From Cupriavidus pauculus (GTDB lineage: Bacteria > Pseudomonadota > Gammaproteobacteria > Burkholderiales > Burkholderiaceae): DNA of 64,000 nt. Below the pieces are notes generated by a model. That model did no database searches and was not told the origin of the DNA. It saw only the letters and a program-made list of their open reading frames with translations. The stretch covers positions 2,046,001-2,110,000 of the forward strand of contig NZ_CP033969.1 in assembly GCF_003854935.1 (NCBI RefSeq). Reading direction: 5' to 3'. The stretch's first letter is position 1. The number at the start of each line of letters is the position of its first letter. Position numbers and translations under genes: made by a program. Positions 51,378-64,000 of this stretch are shown here, piece after piece.

Positions 51378-51498
51378 GGCTTCTCTCTCCTTCGGGTGTG
51401 TGAGGCTGCCCGAAGGATAGGCCCGGCTGTTTCACTTCTCATCGGTGCCATTGCAACCATTAGTAACAGGAATGAAACAGAACTGCCGGGGTCAGGCT

Positions 51499-51654
51499 GT
51501 AGGTAGCGGAGTTGTTCAGTGCCAGCACCAGCGGCGCGCCCTGCGGCGACAGTTGCACGAACCGATGCTGCTGCGGGACGATCAGCCCCCATCCGCACAG
51601 CCCCCAGACGATCAGCGCGGCGGCGGCGCCGGCGGGATGCAGGGCCGTCCACGG
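51499..51654 (-). pseudogene. Remnant of an MFS transporter (one C-terminal helix pair)
   Basis: Fifty-two codons read PWTALHPAGAAAALIVWGLC, GWGLIVPQQHRFVQLSPQGA and PLVLALNNSATY, which matches the conserved tenth-to-eleventh helix region of AraJ/YdhP-type drug/sugar efflux permeases. The rest of the gene is absent: on one side the frame runs into the 81-bp repeat at 51656, on the other it loses similarity after 51499. There is no start and no full-length frame, so it is a decayed fragment. Confidence 0.6.
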
Positions 51655-51655
51655 C

Positions 51656-51736
51656 AAACTGTTGGCTTGCTTCTCTCCGGAAACGACAATGCCCGCTGGC
51701 GCGGGCATTGAATTCTGGCGGAGAGAGGGGGATTCG
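51656..51736. repeat. 81-bp direct repeat, left copy (duplicated 3' end of tRNA-Ser)
   Basis: It matches 51801-51881 in 80 of 81 positions. It contains a 10-bp-stem hairpin (51687-51710) and ends with 21 bases identical to the 3' end of tRNA-Ser (51716-51736). The left boundary abuts the MFS remnant. Confidence 0.92.
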
Positions 51737-51756
51737 CCTACACAAGCGCAGGCCGC

Positions 51757-51778
51757 GGATTCGCTTGCAAGCGAATCC
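51757..51778. repeat. 22-bp perfect palindrome between the two repeats
   Basis: GGATTCGCTTG is followed directly by its exact reverse complement. It lies between the two 81-bp copies. Part of the tRNA-like GGATTCG is reused in each arm. Confidence 0.85.
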
Positions 51779-51800
51779 CTTCGCATCCCCCCCGCAAGCC

Positions 51801-51881
51801 AAACTGTTGGCTTGCTTCTCTCCGGAAACGACAATGCCCGCGGGCGCGGGCATTGAATTCTGGCGGAGAGAGGGGGATTCG
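51801..51881. repeat. 81-bp direct repeat, right copy (overlaps functional tRNA-Ser)
   Basis: It differs from 51656-51736 by one base (G for T in the hairpin loop). Its last 21 bases are the 3' end of the intact tRNA-Ser, and the hairpin at 51832-51855 is the likely terminator of that tRNA. Confidence 0.92.
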
Positions 51882-51951
51882 AACCCCCGATAGGCTGTTA
51901 ACCTATACACGCTTTCCAGGCGTGCGACTTAAACCACTCATCCATCTCTCC
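51861..51951 (-). tRNA. tRNA-Ser (anticodon GGA)
   Basis: A 91-base class II tRNA on the minus strand with acceptor GGAGAGA, anticodon loop CTGGAAA, a long variable arm (TATAGGTTAACAGCCTAT) and CCA encoded. Its 3' end is duplicated 145 bases downstream. Confidence 0.97.
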
Positions 51952-53398: not shown

Positions 53399-53920
53399 CT
53401 ACGGTGGGCGCTCACGTTCCCGCGCGTCGTGGTGTTCGGCGGCGTGGCGGGCTTCGGCGATGGCGGCGGCGGTGTTGCGGCCGGACTCGAAGGCGTCGAG
53501 CACTGCCGAGGTGGTTGCCGAGTTGAAGCTGGCGATGCCGATGACCGTGGCGCAGGCCGCCACCCAGATGTTCCATCGCAGCAGCCGCGACTCCTTGCGC
53601 ATCTCGCCCATTTCTTCTCGGATGCGGTCGACGTCCGCGCTGGTCTGTGCCTTGAAATCGTCCATCCGCTGGTTCAAGTCCCCCAGCCGCCGGTCGAACA
53701 TGACGCGGAAGCTCTCCAGCAGCGCCGCGTGTCGCTTGTCCATTTCCGCCAGCAGCCGTTCGTTGGACCTGACGTTTTCCTGGTGCCGTTCGTCGCTGCG
53801 GGCGAACAGGCGTTGCATCCGTTCGTCGAAGCGGTGCAGGTTGGCGTCGAATTCTCCCTGCGTCACGGCGGACCGGCGCAATCGTCTTGAACCTGACCGG
53901 GGGGATGGCTGTCTGCGCAT
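53399..53920 (-). CDS. Coiled-coil membrane protein
   Basis: A 173-residue protein. Residues about 20-110 are charged and heptad-like (FDERMQRLFARSDERHQENV, LGDLNQRMDDFKAQTSADV), then one transmembrane helix (WNIWVAACATVIGIASFN, about 117-135) and a short tail. The architecture resembles DUF1640/CCDC90-type proteins, but I do not assign a family. The true start may be the in-frame GTG about 18 codons in (VTQGEFDANL), since the first residues are an Arg/Ser-rich run. Confidence 0.6.
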   Translation of the reverse strand: MRRQPSPRSGSRRLRRSAVTQGEFDANLHRFDERMQRLFARSDERHQENVRSNERLLAEMDKRHAALLESFRVMFDRRLGDLNQRMDDFKAQTSADVDRIREEMGEMRKESRLLRWNIWVAACATVIGIASFNSATTSAVLDAFESGRNTAAAIAEARHAAEHHDARERERPP

Positions 53921-54074
53921 GGAGAGGCCTTCTGGATGAGCGATGGATGGCTTCCAGTGTCAGGGTGATTGGCGGGCAAGGCTATGAGACGGTTCGCAAA
54001 ATGCGGCGTCGAGGGCTACCATGCAAGGGCAACCCGTACCATCCACCCACCCCCAACTCACTACGGAGATCCGC

Positions 54075-54209
54075 ATGTCGAAGGAAAATGGAGGATTCAC
54101 GGCGTCCACGTTGATCGCGTTTGCCGTGGCAGGCATGGCGTTCACGGCGTCGCTGGTGCTGGCCTACTACGTCACGCATCCGGACAAGGTCCGGCAGATC
54201 GGCCAGTAG
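54075..54209 (+). CDS. Small single-pass membrane protein (44 residues)
   Basis: MSKENGGFTAS is followed by a hydrophobic stretch, TLIAFAVAGMAFTASLVLAY, and a basic tail HPDKVRQIGQ. A CGGAGATC ribosome-binding site lies 6 bases upstream. Codon use is normal for the genome. I do not recognise it. It converges on the diguanylate cyclase gene. Confidence 0.6.
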   Translation: MSKENGGFTASTLIAFAVAGMAFTASLVLAYYVTHPDKVRQIGQ

Positions 54210-54244
54210 CGGCGGGCGCCGGCGCGCCGGCCGTGGCCCGGGCC

Positions 54245-54979
54245 CTATGCCGACAAGGCGCGGGTTACGCGGTTGCGGCCGGTGCGCTTGGCTTCGTACA
54301 GCGCCTCGTCGGCGCGGCCGTAGGCGTGTTCGAACGTGCGGCCCTGGGCCGACCAGCTCACGCCAAAGCTCGCCGTCACCGAGCGGTTCACGGGCGGCGG
54401 GAAGCGGTAGTCCTCGATGGCTTGGCGCATGCGCTCGGCCAGGTCCATCGCCGCGTCGATCGAAAAGCCCGGCAGCAGCGCGGCAAACTCTTCCCCTCCC
54501 ACGCGGCCGATGGCCCCTTCGGCCTGGATCGTGTCCTTCAGGCAGGCCGTGACGCCGCAGATCACGGCGTCTCCGGCCGGATGGCCGAAATCGTCGTTGA
54601 GCCGCTTGAAATAGTCGATGTCCAGCACGATCAGCGCCAGGCTGCCGCGCGCCAGCGCCGCCGTGGCGCGGTCGATCACGGCGCCGCGGTTCAGCGCGCC
54701 GGTCAGCGTGTCGTGCGTGGCGCGGTACTCCAGTTCCTGGGCCAGTTCCTGCAGCCGGTGGTTCAGCCGGTTCATCTCCAGCTCTTCGCGGTCGCTGCGG
54801 CGGATCAGCCGGCGCGTCTCGCGCATGAGCCGCTCGTAGTAGCTGATCAGCTGGCCGAGCGTATGCCGATAGGCTTCCTCGCCCGCGTCGACGTCGCAGA
54901 ACACGGCCTTGGCATGCGCCAGGGCGCTGTTCTCGGAATCGAACAGGTCAGGCTCCGACATGGCTGCGGCGGGGGGCAT
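54245..54979 (-). CDS. siaD: SiaD-like diguanylate cyclase
   Basis: A 244-residue soluble cyclase. Residues about 25-85 form a helical/coiled-coil segment (YERLMRETRRLIRRSDREEL) that in P. aeruginosa SiaD contacts SiaC. The GGDEF domain follows; its active site reads GRVGGEEFAALL near residue 162, a catalytically competent GGEEF. No clear RxxD inhibitory site lies just before it. A TTG at 54997 that overlaps the siaC stop is another possible start. It is the last gene of the bcs-sia run and should supply c-di-GMP for cellulose synthesis. Confidence 0.85.
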   Translation of the reverse strand: MPPAAAMSEPDLFDSENSALAHAKAVFCDVDAGEEAYRHTLGQLISYYERLMRETRRLIRRSDREELEMNRLNHRLQELAQELEYRATHDTLTGALNRGAVIDRATAALARGSLALIVLDIDYFKRLNDDFGHPAGDAVICGVTACLKDTIQAEGAIGRVGGEEFAALLPGFSIDAAMDLAERMRQAIEDYRFPPPVNRSVTASFGVSWSAQGRTFEHAYGRADEALYEAKRTGRNRVTRALSA

Positions 54980-54993
54980 GTCGCGGGGTGCGT

Positions 54994-55383
54994 TCAACTG
55001 CTGGTCGTGACCTGGTCGATGAAGTCGATGGCGGGAAAGTCGTCGTGCAGTTCCTGGCCGAATTCCAGGATCGTGTCGTCGTCCTCGTCGTGGAACCAGT
55101 GCAGCGTCACGTGGTTGCCGCGTTCGGCCGCCTCGTTGAGCGCGTCGAACATGCTGAACAGCATCTTGGTGCTGGAGCTGTTGAAGTAGGTCAGTGCGAC
55201 GTTGACGGTGATGTCCATGTCGTCGCAGTCGGCCAGGTACGCGCGCAGGCGGGCCAGGGCCTCGCCGTAGAACACGGCGGCGTTCTCGGGGTAGGACTCG
55301 CCCTTGAGCGAGAGCGTGTGCCGCGCGAAATCGAAGCTCACTTCGGGCGAGCTTGGCGTGGCGGCGATGAACAGGTTTTCCAT
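54994..55383 (-). CDS. siaC: SiaC-like (DUF1987) phospho-switch protein
   Basis: A 129-residue DUF1987 protein. The start MENLFIAATPSSPEVSFDF, the LSLKGESYPENAAVFYG block near residue 25, and NVALTYFNSSSTKMLFSMFD near residue 61 are typical. In P. aeruginosa, SiaC binds SiaD when unphosphorylated and is phosphorylated on a Thr in the YxNTSS segment; here that position appears to be Ser69 in YFNSSSTK. It lies between siaB and siaD as in Pseudomonas. Confidence 0.88.
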   Translation of the reverse strand: MENLFIAATPSSPEVSFDFARHTLSLKGESYPENAAVFYGEALARLRAYLADCDDMDITVNVALTYFNSSSTKMLFSMFDALNEAAERGNHVTLHWFHDEDDDTILEFGQELHDDFPAIDFIDQVTTSS

Positions 55384-55408
55384 GGCGGTTCGGTGCGATC
55401 GGGCAGGG

Positions 55409-55981
55409 TCAGATGGTGGCGACGAGCTGGAACATCGTCGAGACCGGGTCCGTGTCGATCGGCTGAAAGTTGTACTCCAGGGGCGCGCTGGCATCGCGCG
55501 CCATCGTCAGGAAGCCAAGTCCGGCCCCCTTGCTGCCTTCCGGGGCGTCCGAGCGCAGCGTCTCCTTGTACGCGCGCTTGATCTCTTCCAGCGTCATCGT
55601 CCGCACCTTCTCCAGCGTGCCGCGCAGCTGTTCCACGCGGGCCGACGACACCGGGTTCGAGCACATCAGCCGGTAGTGCTCGTCCACCATGCTGATGCAG
55701 ACCGACCCGTGCCGCAGCTGGCCGTCGGGCTGCGACGGCGACGTGAGCGAGTCGGAGGAATAGTGCACGATGTTCTGCGCCATCTCCACGAACGACGAGA
55801 ACAGCTTGCGCCGCGTGGTGCCGTCCACGCCGCTGACGGTAAGCTGCAGCCGCACCGCATCGGACATGGCGGCGATGATGTTCTGCGAAAAATAGCCGAC
55901 GTAGTAGAAAATCACGTTGCGTTCCCGAGCCATTTCGAAGAACGGCTCATATTCCTTGTCAATCGATTGTGCGGCGGTCAT
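55409..55981 (-). CDS. siaB: SiaB-like (SiaB family) protein kinase
   Basis: A 190-residue protein of the SiaB family (DUF6272), which has a GHKL-related fold. VEMAQNIVHYSSDS near residue 68 corresponds to the N-box of histidine-kinase-like ATPases, and SKGAGLGFLTMARDA near residue 153 to the G-box. In Pseudomonas SiaB phosphorylates SiaC. The ATG at 55981 is used; no strong ribosome-binding site is visible. Confidence 0.84.
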   Translation of the reverse strand: MTAAQSIDKEYEPFFEMARERNVIFYYVGYFSQNIIAAMSDAVRLQLTVSGVDGTTRRKLFSSFVEMAQNIVHYSSDSLTSPSQPDGQLRHGSVCISMVDEHYRLMCSNPVSSARVEQLRGTLEKVRTMTLEEIKRAYKETLRSDAPEGSKGAGLGFLTMARDASAPLEYNFQPIDTDPVSTMFQLVATI

Positions 55982-56011
55982 GGTCAAGCGGATAGGTGTG
56001 CAATGGCAGGG

Positions 56012-57271
56012 TCATTGCGCACGGAAACAGAAGAAGGTCAGGTCGTCGCGGCGGCGCTGCGCGCCTTGCCAGGCGCGATGGGCCGCCAGTACCGCGTCGC
56101 CGATCTCGGCGGCCGAGCCGTCGCGCCGCGCGCAGATCGCCTCGCGCATGCGGCGCTTGCCGAACGCGATTTCCTTCGGCCCGCCGATCTGGTCGATCAG
56201 CCCGTCGGTGGTCACGAACACCAGCGTGCCGGGCTGCGTGGGCACCGTGGCGTTCTGCCACGTGTAGTCCATGCCGGTGTCGACGTAGCCCACGCCCATG
56301 CGTGCGCCGTTGACCATCGCGCCGTCGGCGTCGCCGGGCTGCAGCACGAACAGCGACGACTTGGCGCCCGCGAAGGTCAGCGCGCGCGTGGCGTTGTCGA
56401 ACCAGAAGAACGCGGCGTCAAGCCCGTCGTCGGACGCGGTGGCGCCGGGCAGCCGGCGCGCCTCCTGGTCGGCCTCGCGGTCGGTCTGGCCCAGCATCTG
56501 CTTGATGCCGCGGTTCACGGCCATCAGCAGCGCGCCGGCGTCGCGCGGGCCCTGCTGCTCCAGCGCCTGGGTCAGCAGCGACGATGCAATCAGCGTCATG
56601 AACGCGCCCGGCACGCCGTGGCCCGTGCAGTCGGCCAGCGCGGCGAACCAGCCGTCGGCGAACGCGGCAAAGTGGTAGAAGTCGCCGCCCACCACGTCGC
56701 GCGGCTCCCAGACCAGCGCGGCGTCGGGCAGCGTGGCGGCCAGCGTGTCGCGCGACGTGCGCAGCATCGCCCGCTGGATCGTGCTGGCGTAGTCGATGCT
56801 CTGCATGATCTGGCGGTTGCGCTCGGCCTGCATGTCGGCCACCACGCGCATCAGCTGCAGCCCCTGGCCCAGGCCGATGTACTGCCCGCCGCGCGCCACG
56901 ATGAAGCCGTCGGCCAGCGCCTTCTCGCCATATTCCACGGTCCGGAACGTCAGTGCGTCGATGCCCATCTCGGCGTCCACCACCAGCGGCTCCTTGTCCA
57001 TGAACGCGATGCAGCTCTTGCGGTTGTACAGCTCGCGGTGGTACGGCTTGCTCATCTGCGACAGGAAGATCGACCGGTTGATCAGGCCGATGGGCCGGCC
57101 CTGCTCGGTCACGGGCAGGCAGGCCAGGTCCCGGTGCAGCGCAAACACTTCCAGCACGTCCTGGTTGGTGTGGTCGGTCGTGACCGATGGCGTCGCCACG
57201 GCCAGATCCTCTGCGCAGGGCTGCCGGAACCGCGGACGGGCAGCGGGAGAATCCACCAGAATGCCGGACAT
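56012..57271 (-). CDS. siaA: SiaA-like PP2C phosphatase with CBS-like N-terminus
   Basis: A 419-residue protein. Residues about 20-145 resemble a CBS-type sensor domain (DVLEVFALHRDLACLPVTEQ, GRPIGLINRSIFL); the C-terminal 250 residues are a SpoIIE/PP2C phosphatase with metal-binding Asp in DVVGGDFYHF, DCTGHGVPGAFM, FVTTDGLIDQIGG and RRDDLTFF. Pseudomonas SiaA (about 660 residues) has a membrane sensor and HAMP domain instead; none is present here, so this protein is cytosolic. It should dephosphorylate SiaC and switch the cyclase on. Confidence 0.85.
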   Translation of the reverse strand: MSGILVDSPAARPRFRQPCAEDLAVATPSVTTDHTNQDVLEVFALHRDLACLPVTEQGRPIGLINRSIFLSQMSKPYHRELYNRKSCIAFMDKEPLVVDAEMGIDALTFRTVEYGEKALADGFIVARGGQYIGLGQGLQLMRVVADMQAERNRQIMQSIDYASTIQRAMLRTSRDTLAATLPDAALVWEPRDVVGGDFYHFAAFADGWFAALADCTGHGVPGAFMTLIASSLLTQALEQQGPRDAGALLMAVNRGIKQMLGQTDREADQEARRLPGATASDDGLDAAFFWFDNATRALTFAGAKSSLFVLQPGDADGAMVNGARMGVGYVDTGMDYTWQNATVPTQPGTLVFVTTDGLIDQIGGPKEIAFGKRRMREAICARRDGSAAEIGDAVLAAHRAWQGAQRRRDDLTFFCFRAQ

Positions 57272-57366
57272 GACGAAAGGAGCACGAATTGGAAAATGGC
57301 CCCGAGTCTAGGCTGTCTATATGTCGAATCCGTGACCAAAGTCCTTGTAAATCAAGGCTTAAGGCC

Positions 57367-57567
57367 CTACTCGCGTGGGGTGGCGGCATTAGGGTCGAGC
57401 CCCATCGCGCGGGCCAGCAGCGGCCAGCGCCGGGCCGCCTCGGCTGTTTCCACCTCGCCCTGCTGGTCGAAGTAGTGGCGGCCGTCAAAGCCGTCCACCT
57501 TCTGGCTCAGCGCGTCGATGTCGTTGTAGGCGATGGCCGCCTTGCGTGACGTGACCGGCTTGCTCAT
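57367..57567 (-). CDS. bcsR: BcsR-like cellulose biosynthesis protein
   Basis: A 66-residue protein matching BcsR (YhjR): YNDIDALSQKV near residue 14 and AARRWPLLARAMGLD near residue 44 correspond to the conserved NDI-AL and KRWPLLAEFA parts of the E. coli protein. In enterics BcsR partners BcsQ and regulates BcsE and the synthase. It sits 10 bases after bcsG rather than beside bcsQ. Confidence 0.75.
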   Translation of the reverse strand: MSKPVTSRKAAIAYNDIDALSQKVDGFDGRHYFDQQGEVETAEAARRWPLLARAMGLDPNAATPRE

Positions 57568-57577
57568 GGCCGGCCGC

Positions 57578-59134
57578 CTATTTCTGTTCGACCCACACGC
57601 CGTCGGGCGTATGGACCACGTAGCCGTCGGTGCGCTTCATCGTGATCGTCCCCTCGTTCTCGCCCACCATCTGCGTCTGCGGCAGGTCTTCGGCATAGTG
57701 CACCAGCGCCGGCGCGCCCTGGCGGAACGGGCTGTCGGCGATCAGGTTGAACACCAGCTGCGACAGGCCCAGGAAGCTCATCGGCGCGTCGATGACCACC
57801 GGCTGGGGCGCCTCGGCGGCGGGCAGGCCCACCAGCTTGACCCCCACCGGCACGTGGATGATGTTCGGCGTCGGAATCTCGCGCAGGCCCGAGATCTGGT
57901 TCTTGTCGCCACGCAGCGCCGCGCCGTGCTCGGGCACGAACACCACCACGGCCTTGCGGCCGGACTTGGCGATGGTGTCCACGATCCGGTCCACGTCGTC
58001 CAGCAGCGCCTTGAGCCGCAGCGGGTACGACTCCAGGCTCGTCAGCCGCTTGCCCGGCAGCCGGTTGCCGTCGTGCAGCGTCACCGTGTTGTAGTACAGC
58101 GCCACGGGCCGGGCGTCCTGCGCCAGCCGCTTGCGGTACCAGTTGTCGAACGTGGCGAAGTCGCCCAGCACCGGGGAATCGTCGAATGCGCGCATGGCCA
58201 CCGGCACGCCGTCGGTGGAAGCCGGCTGGATGCCGGGCACGCCGATTTCCTTGTCCACGAAGCCGCGGAAGTTGTCGAAGCGGCCGTCGTGGTTCATCAG
58301 CACCTGCGGCGTGAAGCCGGCCTGGGCCAGGTCCGCGAAGACGTGGCATTCGGCCGGCGCCGGGTCGTACAGGTTCTTGTGCGGCTCCTGCCCGCAGGCG
58401 CCGCGCAGCACGCGGATCGCGGCCGGGCCGCTGTAGCTGGCCGCCGAACTGAAGTTCTTGAACAGGTAGTCGAAGCGCGACAGCAGCGGGTGGTTCAGGC
58501 TCTTGGCGGCGTCCAGGTCGTCCCACGACAGCGAGCAGATGTGCAGGAAGATCACGTCGAACTGGGCGTCGGGGGTTGCCGTCAGCGGCGCCACGGTGGC
58601 ACTGCGCTGCGCCTCCTGCTGGCGGAACGCGGTCAGGATGGCGTCGTAGTTGCCGGTTGCGTTGATGTCGGCGCGCGGGCTGTCGGCGGCGCGCGCCACG
58701 GCCGTGGTCCGGCCCGGCAGCGCCACGCCCGGGCCGTACCAGAACGGCATCGCGATCAGCGCCACCAGCACGAACGTGGTGGTCCGCACCCAGCGGTTGA
58801 CCAGCAGGAACACCACCAGCACCAGCAGCACCGCCACCACGAGCTGGATCGACACCAGCCGCTGCAGCAGCTCCAGCAGGTAAGCCGGCGTGAACGCGCG
58901 GATGTTCGAGAACTGCGAGATCACGCGCTCGAACGGCGGCAGCGTCGATTCCCGCCAGGCCAGCGCCGCGCCCACGCCAATTGCCAGCACCTGCCGGATC
59001 ACCCGCAGCGGGCGCGACTCCATCGGCACCACCAGCAGCAGCGCGAACACCAGGTTCAGCAGCCAGATCGGCTTCATCTGCCCGGTGTGGAACAGGTAGA
59101 GCTTGGCCAGGAAATAGAGGTTCCAGAGTCCCAT
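57578..59134 (-). CDS. bcsG: BcsG, cellulose phosphoethanolamine transferase
   Basis: A 518-residue inner-membrane protein. About four to five N-terminal helices (residues 1-145) precede an alkaline-phosphatase-like periplasmic domain. DVIFLHICSLSWDDLD holds the metal-site Cys, SAASYSGPAAIRVLRGACGQ the nucleophilic Ser of the E. coli enzyme, and VFVPEHGAALRGDKN the metal-binding Glu-His. It should transfer phosphoethanolamine from PE to cellulose. It lies 21 bases after bcsA. Confidence 0.93.
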   Translation of the reverse strand: MGLWNLYFLAKLYLFHTGQMKPIWLLNLVFALLLVVPMESRPLRVIRQVLAIGVGAALAWRESTLPPFERVISQFSNIRAFTPAYLLELLQRLVSIQLVVAVLLVLVVFLLVNRWVRTTTFVLVALIAMPFWYGPGVALPGRTTAVARAADSPRADINATGNYDAILTAFRQQEAQRSATVAPLTATPDAQFDVIFLHICSLSWDDLDAAKSLNHPLLSRFDYLFKNFSSAASYSGPAAIRVLRGACGQEPHKNLYDPAPAECHVFADLAQAGFTPQVLMNHDGRFDNFRGFVDKEIGVPGIQPASTDGVPVAMRAFDDSPVLGDFATFDNWYRKRLAQDARPVALYYNTVTLHDGNRLPGKRLTSLESYPLRLKALLDDVDRIVDTIAKSGRKAVVVFVPEHGAALRGDKNQISGLREIPTPNIIHVPVGVKLVGLPAAEAPQPVVIDAPMSFLGLSQLVFNLIADSPFRQGAPALVHYAEDLPQTQMVGENEGTITMKRTDGYVVHTPDGVWVEQK

Positions 59135-59155
59135 GTCGTCTCGTCCGGCTGGCGG

Positions 59156-61741
59156 TCAGGGCGCGCGCGAGCGGCGCCGCGCGAGCACCACGTCCACCGC
59201 GTCCACCAGGGCGTCGTAGAGCCGCAGCAGCCCCTGGTAGCCCATCTCCATGACTTCCTTGAGGCTGCGCAGCGGCGCGTCCACGCGCTCGTCGTCGAGC
59301 CAGTCGATCCACGCGTCGGCGCGCCCGAACGTGCACTGGATCAACTGCGTCTCGCGTTCCATCGTCAGGTCTTCCATGCGCACCCCCAGGTGCCGGTTCA
59401 CGTTGCGCGTGACCACGGCCGGGAAGTGGTAGGTACGCGGCCCGCGCGACAGGCACACGCCCACCCGCGCGCCTTCCTGCAGCGGCACGTCGATGGGCAG
59501 CACCACGCCGAGCCCGCCCATCGAGTAGTTCTCGGTCTTGCAGGCCACCGTGCGGCCGTCCGGCAGCAGCAGCGTGGCCGGCACGCGCATCGGAATGCGG
59601 TGCGACACGCGCACCTGCCGCGCCTCGCGCGCCACGCCCACCGCCGCGCCCAGCATCATCAGGTTGAACAGCGCCCACGCCATGTTCATCAGCACGGTGG
59701 CCGGCTCCTCGGTGCCCCAGAACAGCAGCCGGGCAATGCCGGCCCCGAGCCCGATCACGTTCAGCCCCAGCAGCACCAGGTACGGCTTGGAGATGGTCCA
59801 GTCCAGGTAGTCCTCGGCAATCTGCCCGCCCTTGGCCGTCACGTTGAACTTGCCCGCGCGCGGGTTGATGAACGCCACCGTGGTCGGCAGCACGATGTAC
59901 CACGCCAGCACGGACTCGTAGACCTCGGCCCAGAACGAATGGCGGAACCGCCCCTGCAGCCGCGAGTTGGTGATGTTGGCGATCAGCAGGTACGGCACCA
60001 CGTACGCGGTAATCAGCAGCGCCGACGTGTTGATCACGTGCAGCCCGAAGTACAGGTACGCGATCGGCATCGTCAGGAAGATCAGCCGCGGGATGCCGTA
60101 GAAGAAATGCAGCATCGCGTTGCTGTAGCACAGCCGCTGGAAGAATTTGAGCCCCCGGCCCAGCATCGGGTTGTCCAGCCGGAAGATCTGCGCCATGCCG
60201 CGCGCCCAGCGGATGCGCTGGCCGATATGGCCAGACAGGCTCTCGGTGGCCAGCCCGGCCGCCTGCACCGTGCGCAGGTAGGCGCTGTTGTAGCCCCGGC
60301 GGTGCAGTTTCAGCGCGGTGTGGGCGTCCTCTGTGACGGTCTCCACGGCGATGCCGCCAATCTCCAGCAGCGGGCCGCGCTTGATTACCGCGCACGACCC
60401 GCAGAAGAACGTGGCGTTCCAGAAGTCGTTGCCGTCCTGGATCAGCCCGTAGAACAGGCTGCCCTCATTGGGCACGCGGCGGAACGTGTCGAAGTTGCGC
60501 TCGAACGGGTCGGGCGAGAAGAAGTGGTGCGGCGTCTGCACCAGCGCGCAGTCCGGATCGGCCAGGAACTCGCCCATCGTCATCTGCAGGAACGAGCGCG
60601 TGGGGATGTGGTCGCAGTCGAAGATGGCGATGAACTCGCCGTCGGTCTTGGGCAGCGCGGCGTTGATGTTGCCGGCCTTGGCGTGGCGGTTGTCGGTGCG
60701 GGTCAGGTAGCCCACGCCGGCGGACTCGGCAAACGCCTGGATGTGCGGCCGGCGGCCATCGTCCAGGATGTAGACGCGCAGCTTGTCGGCCGGCCAGTCC
60801 ATGCTGCGCGCGGCGAACACGGTGGGCTGGATCACGTTCAGCGACTCGTTGTACGTCGGGATGAAGACGTCGACGGTTGGCCAGCGCTCGGGGTCGGCCG
60901 GCAGCGGCTTGGGCCGCCGGTGCAGCGGCCACGCGGTCTGCAGGTAGCCCAGCGCCAGCACCAGCCACGTGTAGACCTCGGCCGCGTAGAGCACGTAGCC
61001 CACGGCCGCCTCGATGGCGCTGGCGAACTGCAGCGTCTGCGTTGACCGCCACCAGATGTAGCGGCCGGCCATCAGCGTCGAGATGGCGATCATCGTGATC
61101 GTCGCCAGCCGGCCCGGCACGCGGCGCACCACGCTCAGCACGATCCACACCACGGCGAACAGCAGCAACTGGCCCGCCAGCGGCAGCGGCGTGGTGCTGA
61201 CGGCCAGCGCGGCGATGGCGGCCAGCACCAGCGACACCGGCAGCACGAACGGAATGCGGCCCACGCGCGCGGACACGGCCTCGGTGACGTAGGCCACGCG
61301 GTTCCAGTCCGGCCGGGGCAGCCGTTGCAGGACCTTGTGGCGCAGCCGGGAAGACGCGTGCCAGACCGGCTCCAGCACGCGGTCGAGCCAGCGGCGCAGC
61401 CAGCGCTTGCGCGCGGGTTCCGCGCCGCCGCGCTGCTTGCGTGGGTCGGCGGCCAGCCGCACGCGCGGACGGGGCGGGCGGATGATCAGCCGCCACAGCC
61501 ATGCGGCCGGCGTCCGCCGCTTGCCCAGGCCCAGCCGTGCCACCGCACGGCGGTAGATCAGCGCGGCCCATTCGGCCGGGATGTCGGGCTTGCCGGGCCG
61601 GGGCGGGCGGAAGAACAGCCGCAGCAGCCAGTCCCACGCACGCGGCACGGCGCCGCCGCTGGCGCCCACGCCCAGCTCGCGCGCCACGCGGTCGCTGGCC
61701 CACGCCATCCACAGCCGCAGCCGTCCGGTGCCGTGGTTCAT
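59156..61741 (-). CDS. bcsA: Cellulose synthase catalytic subunit BcsA
   Basis: An 861-residue processive GT2 enzyme of the inner membrane. A basic N-terminal extension of about 150 residues precedes the transmembrane region; the glycosyltransferase core has DDG at 327-329, DCD at 375-377, TED at 470-472 and QRIRW near 508. Further helices follow, then a C-terminal PilZ domain with SHRIPMRVPATLL and ENYSMGGLGV for c-di-GMP. It polymerises UDP-glucose when c-di-GMP is bound. Its start overlaps the bcsQ stop (ATGA). No bcsB follows; bcsG does. Confidence 0.95.
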   Translation of the reverse strand: MNHGTGRLRLWMAWASDRVARELGVGASGGAVPRAWDWLLRLFFRPPRPGKPDIPAEWAALIYRRAVARLGLGKRRTPAAWLWRLIIRPPRPRVRLAADPRKQRGGAEPARKRWLRRWLDRVLEPVWHASSRLRHKVLQRLPRPDWNRVAYVTEAVSARVGRIPFVLPVSLVLAAIAALAVSTTPLPLAGQLLLFAVVWIVLSVVRRVPGRLATITMIAISTLMAGRYIWWRSTQTLQFASAIEAAVGYVLYAAEVYTWLVLALGYLQTAWPLHRRPKPLPADPERWPTVDVFIPTYNESLNVIQPTVFAARSMDWPADKLRVYILDDGRRPHIQAFAESAGVGYLTRTDNRHAKAGNINAALPKTDGEFIAIFDCDHIPTRSFLQMTMGEFLADPDCALVQTPHHFFSPDPFERNFDTFRRVPNEGSLFYGLIQDGNDFWNATFFCGSCAVIKRGPLLEIGGIAVETVTEDAHTALKLHRRGYNSAYLRTVQAAGLATESLSGHIGQRIRWARGMAQIFRLDNPMLGRGLKFFQRLCYSNAMLHFFYGIPRLIFLTMPIAYLYFGLHVINTSALLITAYVVPYLLIANITNSRLQGRFRHSFWAEVYESVLAWYIVLPTTVAFINPRAGKFNVTAKGGQIAEDYLDWTISKPYLVLLGLNVIGLGAGIARLLFWGTEEPATVLMNMAWALFNLMMLGAAVGVAREARQVRVSHRIPMRVPATLLLPDGRTVACKTENYSMGGLGVVLPIDVPLQEGARVGVCLSRGPRTYHFPAVVTRNVNRHLGVRMEDLTMERETQLIQCTFGRADAWIDWLDDERVDAPLRSLKEVMEMGYQGLLRLYDALVDAVDVVLARRRSRAP

Positions 61742-62514
61742 GGTGTGCCTCCGCCCTGGGCGCGCGTCTCGATCCATGCCGACAGCCACGACGCCAGCCC
61801 GTTCAGGTCGTGCGCGGCCTGCGAGTGCGGCGTGCTGCGGCTGAAGCACTCGCTGCGCGCCAGTGCCTCGGGCACGCTGCTGTCCTCGTGCACGTGATAC
61901 GGCAGCATGGCCGTCCCCAGCATCGCCTGGAGCATCGCCACGATGTCGACGTGCAGCGGCCGCGCCGGATGCAGCCGCGTGGCCACGTAGCGCACGGTCT
62001 TGCCGCGCGTGGCCAGATCGTCGGCCAGCCGCTTCAGCGTCAGGCACGTCTCGGGCTGCGCCGGCACCAGCACCAGCACCAGGTCGGCCGCGTCGATGGC
62101 CTGGCTGGCGTAACCGGACGGCCACGGCGCCGTGTCGATCAGCACCGCGCCGGTGGCCGGCAGGTCCACCTGGCCGATCCGCCGCGCCAGCCAGTTCGCC
62201 GGCAGCCGCTCGATGGCGCCCGATTCCGCGCTGTCACCCCATGGCACGAACAGTACGCCGTCGTCGCTGCGCAGGCCCGCGCCGGCCCAGGCCGTGGCCG
62301 AGCCATCGTGCAGCGACCCGCCCAGCCCGTCGGCCGGAATGTCGCGCAGGCCGAAGTGAAAGCCGAGCACGTTGCGCGGATCGCATTCCACGGCCAGCAC
62401 GTCGTGCTTGCGCCAGGCCAGCAGCGACGCCAGTTCGGCGGTCAGCGTGCTGCGGCCCGCGCCGCCCGTGGTCGATACCAGGGCGATGGTGGCGGCTGGC
62501 GTGCCCGTGCTCAT
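61738..62514 (-). CDS. bcsQ: BcsQ, ParA/MinD-like cellulose localisation ATPase
   Basis: A 258-residue protein of the SIMIBI class. The nucleotide loop is STTGGAGRSTLTAELASLLA near residue 14, lacking the deviant-Walker Lys (KGGxGKS-T) and having Arg at the usual Lys, so ATP hydrolysis may be weak, as suspected for BcsQ. VLIDTAPWPSGYASQAID near residue 123 is the Walker B region. In E. coli BcsQ helps place the synthase at the pole. Four-base overlaps join it to bcsF and bcsA. Confidence 0.88.
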   Translation of the reverse strand: MSTGTPAATIALVSTTGGAGRSTLTAELASLLAWRKHDVLAVECDPRNVLGFHFGLRDIPADGLGGSLHDGSATAWAGAGLRSDDGVLFVPWGDSAESGAIERLPANWLARRIGQVDLPATGAVLIDTAPWPSGYASQAIDAADLVLVLVPAQPETCLTLKRLADDLATRGKTVRYVATRLHPARPLHVDIVAMLQAMLGTAMLPYHVHEDSSVPEALARSECFSRSTPHSQAAHDLNGLASWLSAWIETRAQGGGTP

Positions 62515-62711
62515 CGCCGGCCCCCCGTGCCGCCCTGGCGCTTGCCGCGTATCACCAGCGCGTCAAGCTGCGGCGGCAGCCGCACGGCCCGGCGCGGGCG
62601 CGGCGCGCTCCAGCGCGGCAGCCAGCGCAGCAGGTCGAAGCGCCACGCCAGCCAGGCCAGCGGCGCGGCCAGGATCAGGCCCCAGATGAAATAGCCGAGA
62701 AAGATCGCCAT
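62511..62711 (-). CDS. bcsF: BcsF-like small membrane protein
   Basis: A 66-residue protein with one transmembrane helix (AIFLGYFIWGLILAAPLAWL) and a basic cytosolic tail. Length, topology and position beside bcsE match BcsF, which recruits BcsE to the synthase in E. coli. Sequence identity with the enteric protein is low, so the call rests on context. It starts two bases after the bcsE stop. Confidence 0.75.
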   Translation of the reverse strand: MAIFLGYFIWGLILAAPLAWLAWRFDLLRWLPRWSAPRPRRAVRLPPQLDALVIRGKRQGGTGGRR

Positions 62712-62713
62712 GG

Positions 62714-64000
62714 TCAGTCCTGACGTTTGAGGGGCACCGGATGCGGCGCCGGCAGGGTGCGCGGCGCGGCGCCGGGGCCGGGGCGGCGGGGCGGCACCAG
62801 CGGCAGCGACACGGCGGCCGGCTCGGGTTCGGGTTCGGATTCGGGCGCCACTTCAGGCATGGGCGGCATGGGCGGCAGGTCGGCGGCAGCGGCGTCGGCG
62901 GTGGCCGGAGAGGTTGGACCCGCCGGGTGCGCCGGCAGCCAGTTGCCGTAGTCGGGCGGCGGATACGCGGCGATCTCCGCTTCCAGCCGCGCCAGTTCGG
63001 CCGTGATCGATTCGTTGTCGCCGCTGCGCAGGTCGCCCTGGAACAGGTCGGCCATGGGCCGCTGGAACACGCGCTGGCAGACCGCATCCACGTCGTCCAG
63101 CCGGCAGGCGAAGAAGAACGCATAGAGGCTGTCGCTGCCGGCGGTGCACAGGTCCCCCGCGCGGCTCATGCGGCAGGCGCGCAGCGCGTCGACGTGGGCC
63201 ACCTCGGGCAGCAGCGGCAGTTGCAGCAGCACGTGCGGCAGGCGGATCATGCGGCTGCGCTCCACCGCGTCGCGCACCAGCGCCACGAACGTGGGCGCCG
63301 CCACGTAGCCGCTGGCCGTGGTGGTCAGCACCGCCGACAGCGCGTTGTGGTAGTCGGCCAGGATCGGCCGCGAGAACACCTGGCCCTGCAGCCCGTCGAT
63401 CATCGCCTGCATCCGCGCGAATGGCGTGCGCTGCGCGATCACGGCGTTGGCGCCCAGGTTCAGCATCAGCAGCTCATAGTGCTGGCGCATGGCCTCGCGG
63501 TCCTCGCGGATCACGATCTTCAGCGCGCGGCCCGCGCTGCGGCGCAGCCGGTGCACCTGCCCAGCCAGCATCTCCAGGTCGCGCGTGCCGGCGTAGTGCA
63601 GGATCACGGTGGCCGCCACCGCCTTGCTGGCCGTGGCCACGGCGGCCTCGTTGCTGTCCACCACGCGCCACGCTTCGGGGATGAAGCGCTCGCGCAGCAC
63701 CGCGTCGCGGCTGGCAATCACGCGCTGCTCGTCGGGCGCCAGCATGCCGGCCTGCTCGATCGTGTCGCTGTACGTGTCGGCCGCCACCATCAGCCGGTGC
63801 TCGCCCGGCGCAAAGCGCAGCCGCACGATCTCGCCGGCCACCACGGCCTGGTTGTCGCGCCAGAACGCCACCTCCCACGTGTACTGGCCCTGTTGCTGCG
63901 ATAGCTGCACGGCGCCCGCAAAGCGGCCGTGAAAGCCGTGCAGGTCCGGCCCCGGCTGGCCGTCGGCTGCCTCGGGCGGCGCCATCGCCAGCAGCAGCGC
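62714..64000 (-). CDS. bcsE: BcsE c-di-GMP-binding protein, C-terminal part (gene runs off the right edge)
   Basis: At least 429 residues are present; the start lies beyond the window. The region resembles the BcsE receiver-like and GGDEF-I-site-like (GIL) domains. RACRMSRAGDLCTAGSDSLY carries the RxGD-type c-di-GMP site (RAGD), followed by LYAFFFACRLDDVDAVCQRVF, and a Pro/Glu/Ala-rich tail (about the last 90 residues) ends the protein. BcsE binds c-di-GMP and boosts cellulose output through BcsF and BcsG. It is the first gene of the run within the window. Confidence 0.88.
   Translation of the reverse strand, partial: ALLLAMAPPEAADGQPGPDLHGFHGRFAGAVQLSQQQGQYTWEVAFWRDNQAVVAGEIVRLRFAPGEHRLMVAADTYSDTIEQAGMLAPDEQRVIASRDAVLRERFIPEAWRVVDSNEAAVATASKAVAATVILHYAGTRDLEMLAGQVHRLRRSAGRALKIVIREDREAMRQHYELLMLNLGANAVIAQRTPFARMQAMIDGLQGQVFSRPILADYHNALSAVLTTTASGYVAAPTFVALVRDAVERSRMIRLPHVLLQLPLLPEVAHVDALRACRMSRAGDLCTAGSDSLYAFFFACRLDDVDAVCQRVFQRPMADLFQGDLRSGDNESITAELARLEAEIAAYPPPDYGNWLPAHPAGPTSPATADAAAADLPPMPPMPEVAPESEPEPEPAAVSLPLVPPRRPGPGAAPRTLPAPHPVPLKRQD

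Follow-up and report, generated by a model that had tools for sequence, protein, structure and literature searches.

A predicted soluble, phosphate-controlled variant of the Sia signaling module behind a cellulose operon of Cupriavidus pauculus

A stretch of 64,000 nucleotides of Cupriavidus pauculus DNA (contig NZ_CP033969.1, positions 2,046,001 to 2,110,000; hereafter the window) was found to carry a complete siaABCD module at 54245–57271 on the minus strand, 95 bases behind a cellulose (bcs) operon. The module is probably a variant of the Sia switch that is soluble, is controlled by phosphate and feeds cyclic di-GMP (c-di-GMP) to cellulose synthesis. Its promoter and its protein differences were assigned by sequence comparison; its regulation, its ligand and its effect on cellulose output are what we infer.

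Pfam profile searches matched the four proteins, in order, to SpoIIE/PP2C (SiaA), DUF6272 (SiaB), PF09345 (SiaC) and GGDEF (SiaD). The four families and the A-B-C-D order given in a preliminary description of the locus were thereby confirmed, and all four genes were present in 25/25 SiaC-bearing Cupriavidus genomes. The 95-base interval between bcsR and siaA on the same strand (57272–57366) was also as described. Read in the direction of transcription, the locus is a single same-strand array of 13 genes, bcsB-Z-C-E-F-Q-A-G-R-siaA-B-C-D. The TTG start of siaD overlaps the siaC stop by 4 nt, with an alternative ATG at 54979. The features of the module are as follows.

54245–54997, minus strand: siaD, diguanylate cyclase family, with an SDR stalk, a GGEEF active site and QAEG in place of the RxxD feedback site (I-site)
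54994–55383, minus strand: siaC, PF09345 phosphoprotein of 129 aa, start at ATG 55383
55409–55987, minus strand: siaB, SiaB-family kinase (DUF6272) of 192 aa, with EMAQN and GAGLG motifs
56012–57271, minus strand: siaA, PP2C/SpoIIE phosphatase of 419 aa, with a CBS-like N-terminus (below the Pfam cut-off) and without a membrane segment
57272–57366, minus strand: bcsR-siaA gap of 95 bases, with a segment able to form a hairpin and without a clear intrinsic terminator
57305–57336, minus strand: predicted siaA promoter, consisting of the Pho box GTCACGGATTCGACAT (57336–57321), 10 nt and the −10 element TAGACT (57310–57305)

The linkage of bcs and sia, which the preliminary description had proposed to survey, recurred in the genus. 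Among 61 Cupriavidus genomes, SiaC was found in 25 and BcsG in 31. Both were in one locus and in the same order in 14 genomes and lay apart in 2; SiaC occurred without BcsG in 9 genomes, and BcsG without SiaC in 15. Three of the 9 had sia directly behind a diverged operon, bcsQ-A-B-Z-C, with 28–57% identity to the window genes. Thus, 17/25 genus modules ended a cellulose operon (14 of the BcsG type and 3 of the bcsQABZC type), two of the loci counted ending at contig ends within or near bcsA. The flanks differed between the sia contexts within the roughly 20 kb read. This repeated association argues that the cyclase serves cellulose.

A quick tree was constructed from the four joined Sia proteins, with 28 of 57 loci from outside the genus (see below) as the outgroup. 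The three bcsQAB modules formed one clade (100), and the 14 BcsG-linked modules formed another (100), partly open in its inner order, together with the module of genome G053. In G053, a bcs operon of the window type (65–91% identity) has no sia behind it, and sia lies elsewhere. The two clades were sisters (support 93), with the other modules away from bcs outside them. One ancestral link followed by a change of operon and two separate gains both fit this tree.

For comparison beyond the genus, 80 loci were used, namely 40 of the 48 matches from the search of the family Burkholderiaceae and 40 from 40 of the other 59 genomes of the order Burkholderiales; five of the 80 were shorter than 15 kb. 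SiaA matched the window SiaA over more than 88% of its length in 57 of them and over less in 23. The full-length SiaA type hence comprised 82 modules (25 from the genus and 57 from outside).

All four window proteins fell below the NCBIfam equivalog cut-offs (bits/cut-off: SiaA 180/700, SiaB 72/225, SiaC 86/150, SiaD 148/290), while the broader model SiaB_fam_kinase was passed by the window SiaB (209/85 bits). No HAMP match was found in SiaA by Pfam, and the best 19-residue hydropathy across its 419 aa was 1.32. Across all 82 SiaA of the full-length type the best hydropathy was at most 1.78, against 2.39–3.14 in the 21/23 less-matching SiaA that had clear membrane segments; loci L116 and L117 held the two less-matching SiaA without them. 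Since the window SiaA lacks a membrane segment, it could not sense membrane perturbation in the way of Pseudomonas aeruginosa SiaA. Among SiaA homologues, CBS matches were obtained for 48/58 at E ≤ 0.001 and were absent from 10/58. The PP2C metal Asp residues were kept in SiaA.

The predicted acceptor of SiaC is Ser69 (codon AGC, 55177–55179) within YFNSSST, which aligned with Thr68 of P. aeruginosa. Ser occupied this place in 82/82 SiaC of the full-length type, as well as in L116 and L117; Thr was kept in 21/21 SiaC of the membrane type. The RxxD site was present in 0/68 SiaD of the full-length type versus 20/20 others passing the same filter, the 68 being those of the 25 genus modules and of the 43/57 outside loci whose siaD reached 75% coverage (several remaining loci had no siaD nearby). 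The SDR stalk motif was found in 68/68. Soluble SiaA, Ser acceptor and SiaD without the I-site sort cleanly from the membrane type in these alignments. The preliminary description had likened the module to that of Pseudomonas; its families and order stood, while the Pseudomonas type did not, since the equivalog cut-offs, the membrane SiaA, Thr68 and the I-site were all missed. Judged by its protein sequences, the window module is a second Sia subfamily and not the Pseudomonas module, namely a soluble Ser-type variant.

Two further differences were observed in the proteins. The SiaD stalk (about 54740–54800) carried 7 extra residues (one heptad) between SDR and the GGDEF domain, as judged from 15 Cupriavidus sequences with the heptad and 12 other sequences without it. 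In one linked genome (L042:13388–14377), siaB and siaC formed one open frame of 330 aa with no stop between them, which reflects either a sequencing error or a genuine fusion of kinase and substrate.

When the sequences before siaA in the 14 linked loci of the window type were aligned, a conserved block, GTCAC-N6-GACAT-N10-TAGACT, stood out in the bcsR-siaA gap. A generalized motif built from the siaA promoters, GTCAY-N6-GWCAY-N10-TANNNT, lay 63–67 bases (80 in one) before siaA in 24/25 genus genomes, compared with 0.0 per 25 over 200 rounds in a shuffled-base control; it was found in the gap of 14/14 loci of the window type and before siaA in 10/11 genus modules of the other contexts. The exact pattern occurred at 8 places in the C. 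pauculus genome versus 0 for the reversed pattern. These sites preceded siaA, pstS (NF008171), a Ppx gene (TIGR03706, in the pst-pho cluster), a gene for a DeoR-family regulator, a PhoX-family gene (PF05787, E 1.9e-14; no NCBIfam match), a periplasmic-binding-protein gene and a phosphoesterase-family gene (PF04185) whose start lies 289 nt after the site; no gene was called behind the eighth. Behind pstS lie two permease genes, one ATPase gene and the genes of PhoU, PhoB (TIGR02154) and PhoR (TIGR02966). A stricter pattern, TGTCAY-N6-TGTCAY, was rejected, as it occurred at one place and no Pho gene was recognized by eye in the 3-kb locus there.

The motif was also present before pstS in 30/30 genus loci read, which were the best-scoring 30 of the 61 genomes with a PstS match. 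When a matrix was built from the 27 distinct pstS sites only, the siaA site scored 27.5 and was the top site in the 64-kb window, the next best scoring 5.3. For a wider comparison, siaA promoters were scored with a softened pstS matrix, 4000 random pieces serving as the null. Of the full-length subfamily, 65/82 siaA exceeded the 99% null, against 0/23 others (Fisher 1e-12, relatedness not corrected), and 45/82 against 0/23 exceeded the 99.9% null. Among the genus modules, the numbers above the 99% and 99.9% nulls were 14/14 and 13 (BcsG-linked), 3/3 and 3 (bcsQABZC-linked), and 7/8 and 7 (away from bcs). Family loci of the subfamily reached 32/36 and 21/36, respectively. In a scan of named genomes, in which the best 80 of 380 loci were read, 18 came from the genus (mostly genomes already in the genus set; 12/18 beside bcs); of the other 62 loci, 30/62 were above the 99% null and 17/62 above the 99.9% null. 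In its 95-base gap, siaA appears to have its own conserved promoter-like site, matching the Pho-box type, which PhoB would be expected to bind. The site is comparable to the Pho box of E. coli.

The following mechanism is proposed. Under phosphate starvation, PhoB would bind the Pho box recognized by sequence at 57336–57321 and turn on siaABCD. By homology with the solved Pseudomonas proteins (sequence homology was found to 6k4e, 6kko, 6k4f and 7e6g), SiaB would phosphorylate SiaC at Ser69 and so keep it off SiaD, and SiaA would dephosphorylate SiaC, its activity being controlled by a cytosolic ligand that the CBS-like domain binds. The catalytic motifs of SiaB and SiaA are kept, and their action on SiaC is predicted. 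Free SiaC may then clamp the SDR-bearing stalk of SiaD and activate the GGEEF cyclase, both motifs being present. Because SiaD lacks the RxxD feedback site, inhibition by its product is not expected. The c-di-GMP made beside bcs would act on BcsA, through PilZ, and on BcsE, and would raise cellulose output; this last step is supported by the existence of two distinct junctions between sia and bcs within the genus.

Another explanation, which we regard as unlikely, is that bcs and siaABCD form one operon with a joint transcript, in which sia solely tunes cellulose and the gap promoter is minor. The shared strand, the 95-base gap and the two different junctions agree with it. A terminator scan of 53900–64000 gave 3 terminators where 3.5 were expected, all of them outside the gap; hairpins were present in the gap, a few relatives having a short T run, and none was consistent over the 14 loci in a rough hairpin script. 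Since no consistent intrinsic terminator was found, read-through from bcs is possible. A sigma-70 scan of the same region gave 0 promoters (0.8 expected), the Pho-type promoter lying outside the consensus of the scan. Against the one-operon explanation, the conserved Pho-box motif occurs in every gap of the window type and before siaA in 10/11 modules of the other contexts; with a promoter-like site in the gap, sia could be transcribed independently of bcs. In the 13 relatives the gap measures 116–344 bases, against 95 in the window, and is wider than the majority of the gaps inside bcs (some of these being distorted by gene calling). The preliminary description had named a strong terminator together with a separate promoter in this gap as what would contradict a joint circuit; a separate promoter-like site of the Pho type was found there, and a consistent intrinsic terminator was not. 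Two observations concern the gap lengths: at 57367–57420 the window bcsR extends over the conserved element of the gap, which makes the gap shorter than in the relatives, and the largest gap, in L043, may stem from gene calling.

Somewhat less likely still, the module could control something else, such as motility or another matrix polymer, and hitch-hike beside bcs through joint transfer or a favorable insertion site. In this direction point the genus modules that lie elsewhere, the diffusibility of c-di-GMP and the absence of bcs beside sia in the loci read outside the genus. By contrast, two diverged bcs types are joined to sia with different flanks, which would be difficult to account for if no functional tie existed, although the sister relationship of the linked groups allows a single ancestral link with operon replacement. 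A third explanation, the least probable of the three, is that the direct-repeat site is bound not by PhoB but by another OmpR/PhoB-type regulator. Many regulators of the OmpR/PhoB class bind direct repeats of 10–11 bases; yet the same architecture precedes pstS in all loci read, as well as the ppx and PhoX-family genes of the C. pauculus genome.

The phosphate-controlled, cellulose-directed reading is preferred over these three, and a number of results weigh against it. The CBS match of the window SiaA (19.9 bits) is below the Pfam cut-off of 24, and the SiaD residue corresponding to the SiaC contact Q86 is Glu. In one genus genome (L051), no box was found at the called siaA start, and among the order loci of the subfamily only 9/21 were above the 99% null and 1/21 above the 99.9% null; the null-test counts thus support the box well in the family and weakly beyond it. 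No Pho box was found before bcsB with the pstS matrix; joint induction of sia and the cellulose genes is therefore not predicted. BcsG belongs to the family of the cellulose phosphoethanolamine transferase, which implies phosphate spent on the polymer and is odd under phosphate starvation. Moreover, 8/25 genus modules lie away from bcs, two of them (G024, G053) in genomes with a bcs operon elsewhere; c-di-GMP diffuses; and the C. pauculus genome, with its one SiaC, has 26 GGDEF matches. The local c-di-GMP circuit dedicated to cellulose that the preliminary description had proposed accordingly gains from the repeated bcs association, while the word dedicated is doubtful because of these 8 modules and the 26 GGDEF matches.

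Outside the genus, bcs was beside sia in 0/80 loci, which also weighs against the preferred reading; the bcs-like matches were all weak (L102; L105, ParA-like, 30%; L136, 23% over a third). The other 62 of the named loci (best 80 of 380) likewise gave 0 beside bcs, with one weak match in L212. In the order survey of 399 genomes, SiaC was found in 62 and BcsB in 50, and in the family survey SiaC was found in 70/399 genomes. Thirteen order genomes outside the genus had both SiaC and BcsB, some BcsB matches being weak; in 3 both were on one contig at least 46 kb apart, and in 10 they were on different contigs, where adjacency is possible. No general sia partner gene was found in the flanks of 57 + 62 outside loci among the first 22 listed families present in at least 8 loci, the neighbors being mostly lineage-specific. 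A GGDEF-EAL gene lay near sia (median about 0.7 kb) in 15/119 outside loci, L220 among them.

With about even chances, a second Sia class is common in Betaproteobacteria, a soluble Ser switch gated by a CBS domain and free of product feedback, which in Burkholderiaceae at least would be a Pho regulon member turning phosphate starvation into c-di-GMP, and which Cupriavidus would have joined to two kinds of cellulose operon, driving matrix production. If so, a direct genetic route would lead from phosphate starvation through c-di-GMP to cellulose, with promoter, switch and polymer machine in one locus, and the module may link phosphate lack to the building of biofilm matrix. The Sia family is suggested to have two classes that differ jointly in their input, the residue phosphorylated, feedback and the control of transcription; this permits clear tests of the phosphorylated residue, product inhibition and phosphate response.

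The cellulose operon contains an E. coli-type (type II) Bcs set, with A, B, C, Z, E, G, Q and R matched by Pfam and BcsF assigned by position. In the window, Pfam matches were obtained for BcsR, BcsG, BcsA with PilZ, BcsQ and BcsE, which bore out the gene names of the preliminary description except for the 66-aa BcsF; this protein had no match in the Pfam search, and its name rests on position and conservation. Just beyond the window edge, bcsB (PF03170), bcsZ (GH8) and bcsC (PF05420), also found by Pfam on the same strand, were added. Both c-di-GMP receptor motifs previously noted were recovered, PilZ in BcsA by Pfam and RxGD as RSGD, legible in the BcsE sequence.

57367–57567, minus strand: bcsR, PF10945
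57578–59134, minus strand: bcsG, PF11658
59156–61699, minus strand: bcsA, cellulose synthase with PilZ c-di-GMP domain
61738–62514, minus strand: bcsQ, PF06564
62511–62711, minus strand: bcsF, assigned from position and conservation; without a Pfam match
62714–64000, minus strand: bcsE, leaving the window, with RSGD; upstream then bcsC, bcsZ and bcsB (stretch L002, up to 19903)

A few kb upstream of bcsB, genes for YfiR and YfiN (DgcN) and a GAF-GGDEF-EAL gene lie on the same strand (L003:1299–6144), with an intervening aminotransferase-like gene on the opposite strand; they represent a second c-di-GMP system close to this cellulose operon. In a Cupriavidus genome without sia (L073:12519–14291), a PAS protein and a GGDEF/EAL-like frame lie behind bcsR as another c-di-GMP-type neighbor of bcs. 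In the linked genome G047 (L039:10384–11936), bcsG is broken into two reading frames, one of the pieces having a stop. A tRNA-Ser(gga) at 51861–51951 of the window is adjoined by repeated stretches (51445–51951) and is a possible integration site.

Compared with SiaABCD of P. aeruginosa, the window module shares the A-B-C-D order, the PP2C phosphatase, the SiaB-family kinase, DUF1987/SiaC and the stalk-GGDEF cyclase, and keeps the PP2C metal Asp residues and the SDR stalk motif (S82, D83). It differs in a SiaA with a CBS-like N-terminus and without the membrane/HAMP part, Ser for Thr68, SiaD without RxxD, the Pho-box promoter and the cellulose neighborhood. According to the sections available of PMC8457831 and PMC7647112, T68 and its neighbors in P. 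aeruginosa SiaC contact S82, D83 and Q86 of SiaD, and phosphorylation blocks binding. P. aeruginosa SiaA is reported to sense membrane perturbation (excerpts of PMC12834913), and siaD is named among regulated pathways in P. aeruginosa, its regulator not being evident from the excerpted text (PMC6610081). The parts covered of openly licensed PMC papers contained no account of a Sia module that is soluble, linked to cellulose genes or under Pho control; the sections of PMC10413115 and PMC6978641 that were available held nothing on sia-bcs linkage. With the E. coli type II Bcs system the window shares the named subunits BcsE, F, Q, A, G and R, PilZ in BcsA and RxGD in BcsE, and differs in its single array B-Z-C-E-F-Q-A-G-R ending in a signaling module. 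Cellulose loci of Proteus and Enterobacter contain a cyclase-type gene (PAS-GGDEF), as here, whereas no phosphatase, kinase or SiaC is named with it in the excerpts of PMC7112194, unlike in the window. In Pseudomonas fluorescens, low phosphate is wired to c-di-GMP through RapA, as proposed here (excerpts of PMC3032545); however, in that system c-di-GMP is lowered by a phosphodiesterase, whereas the cyclase module of the window would raise it.

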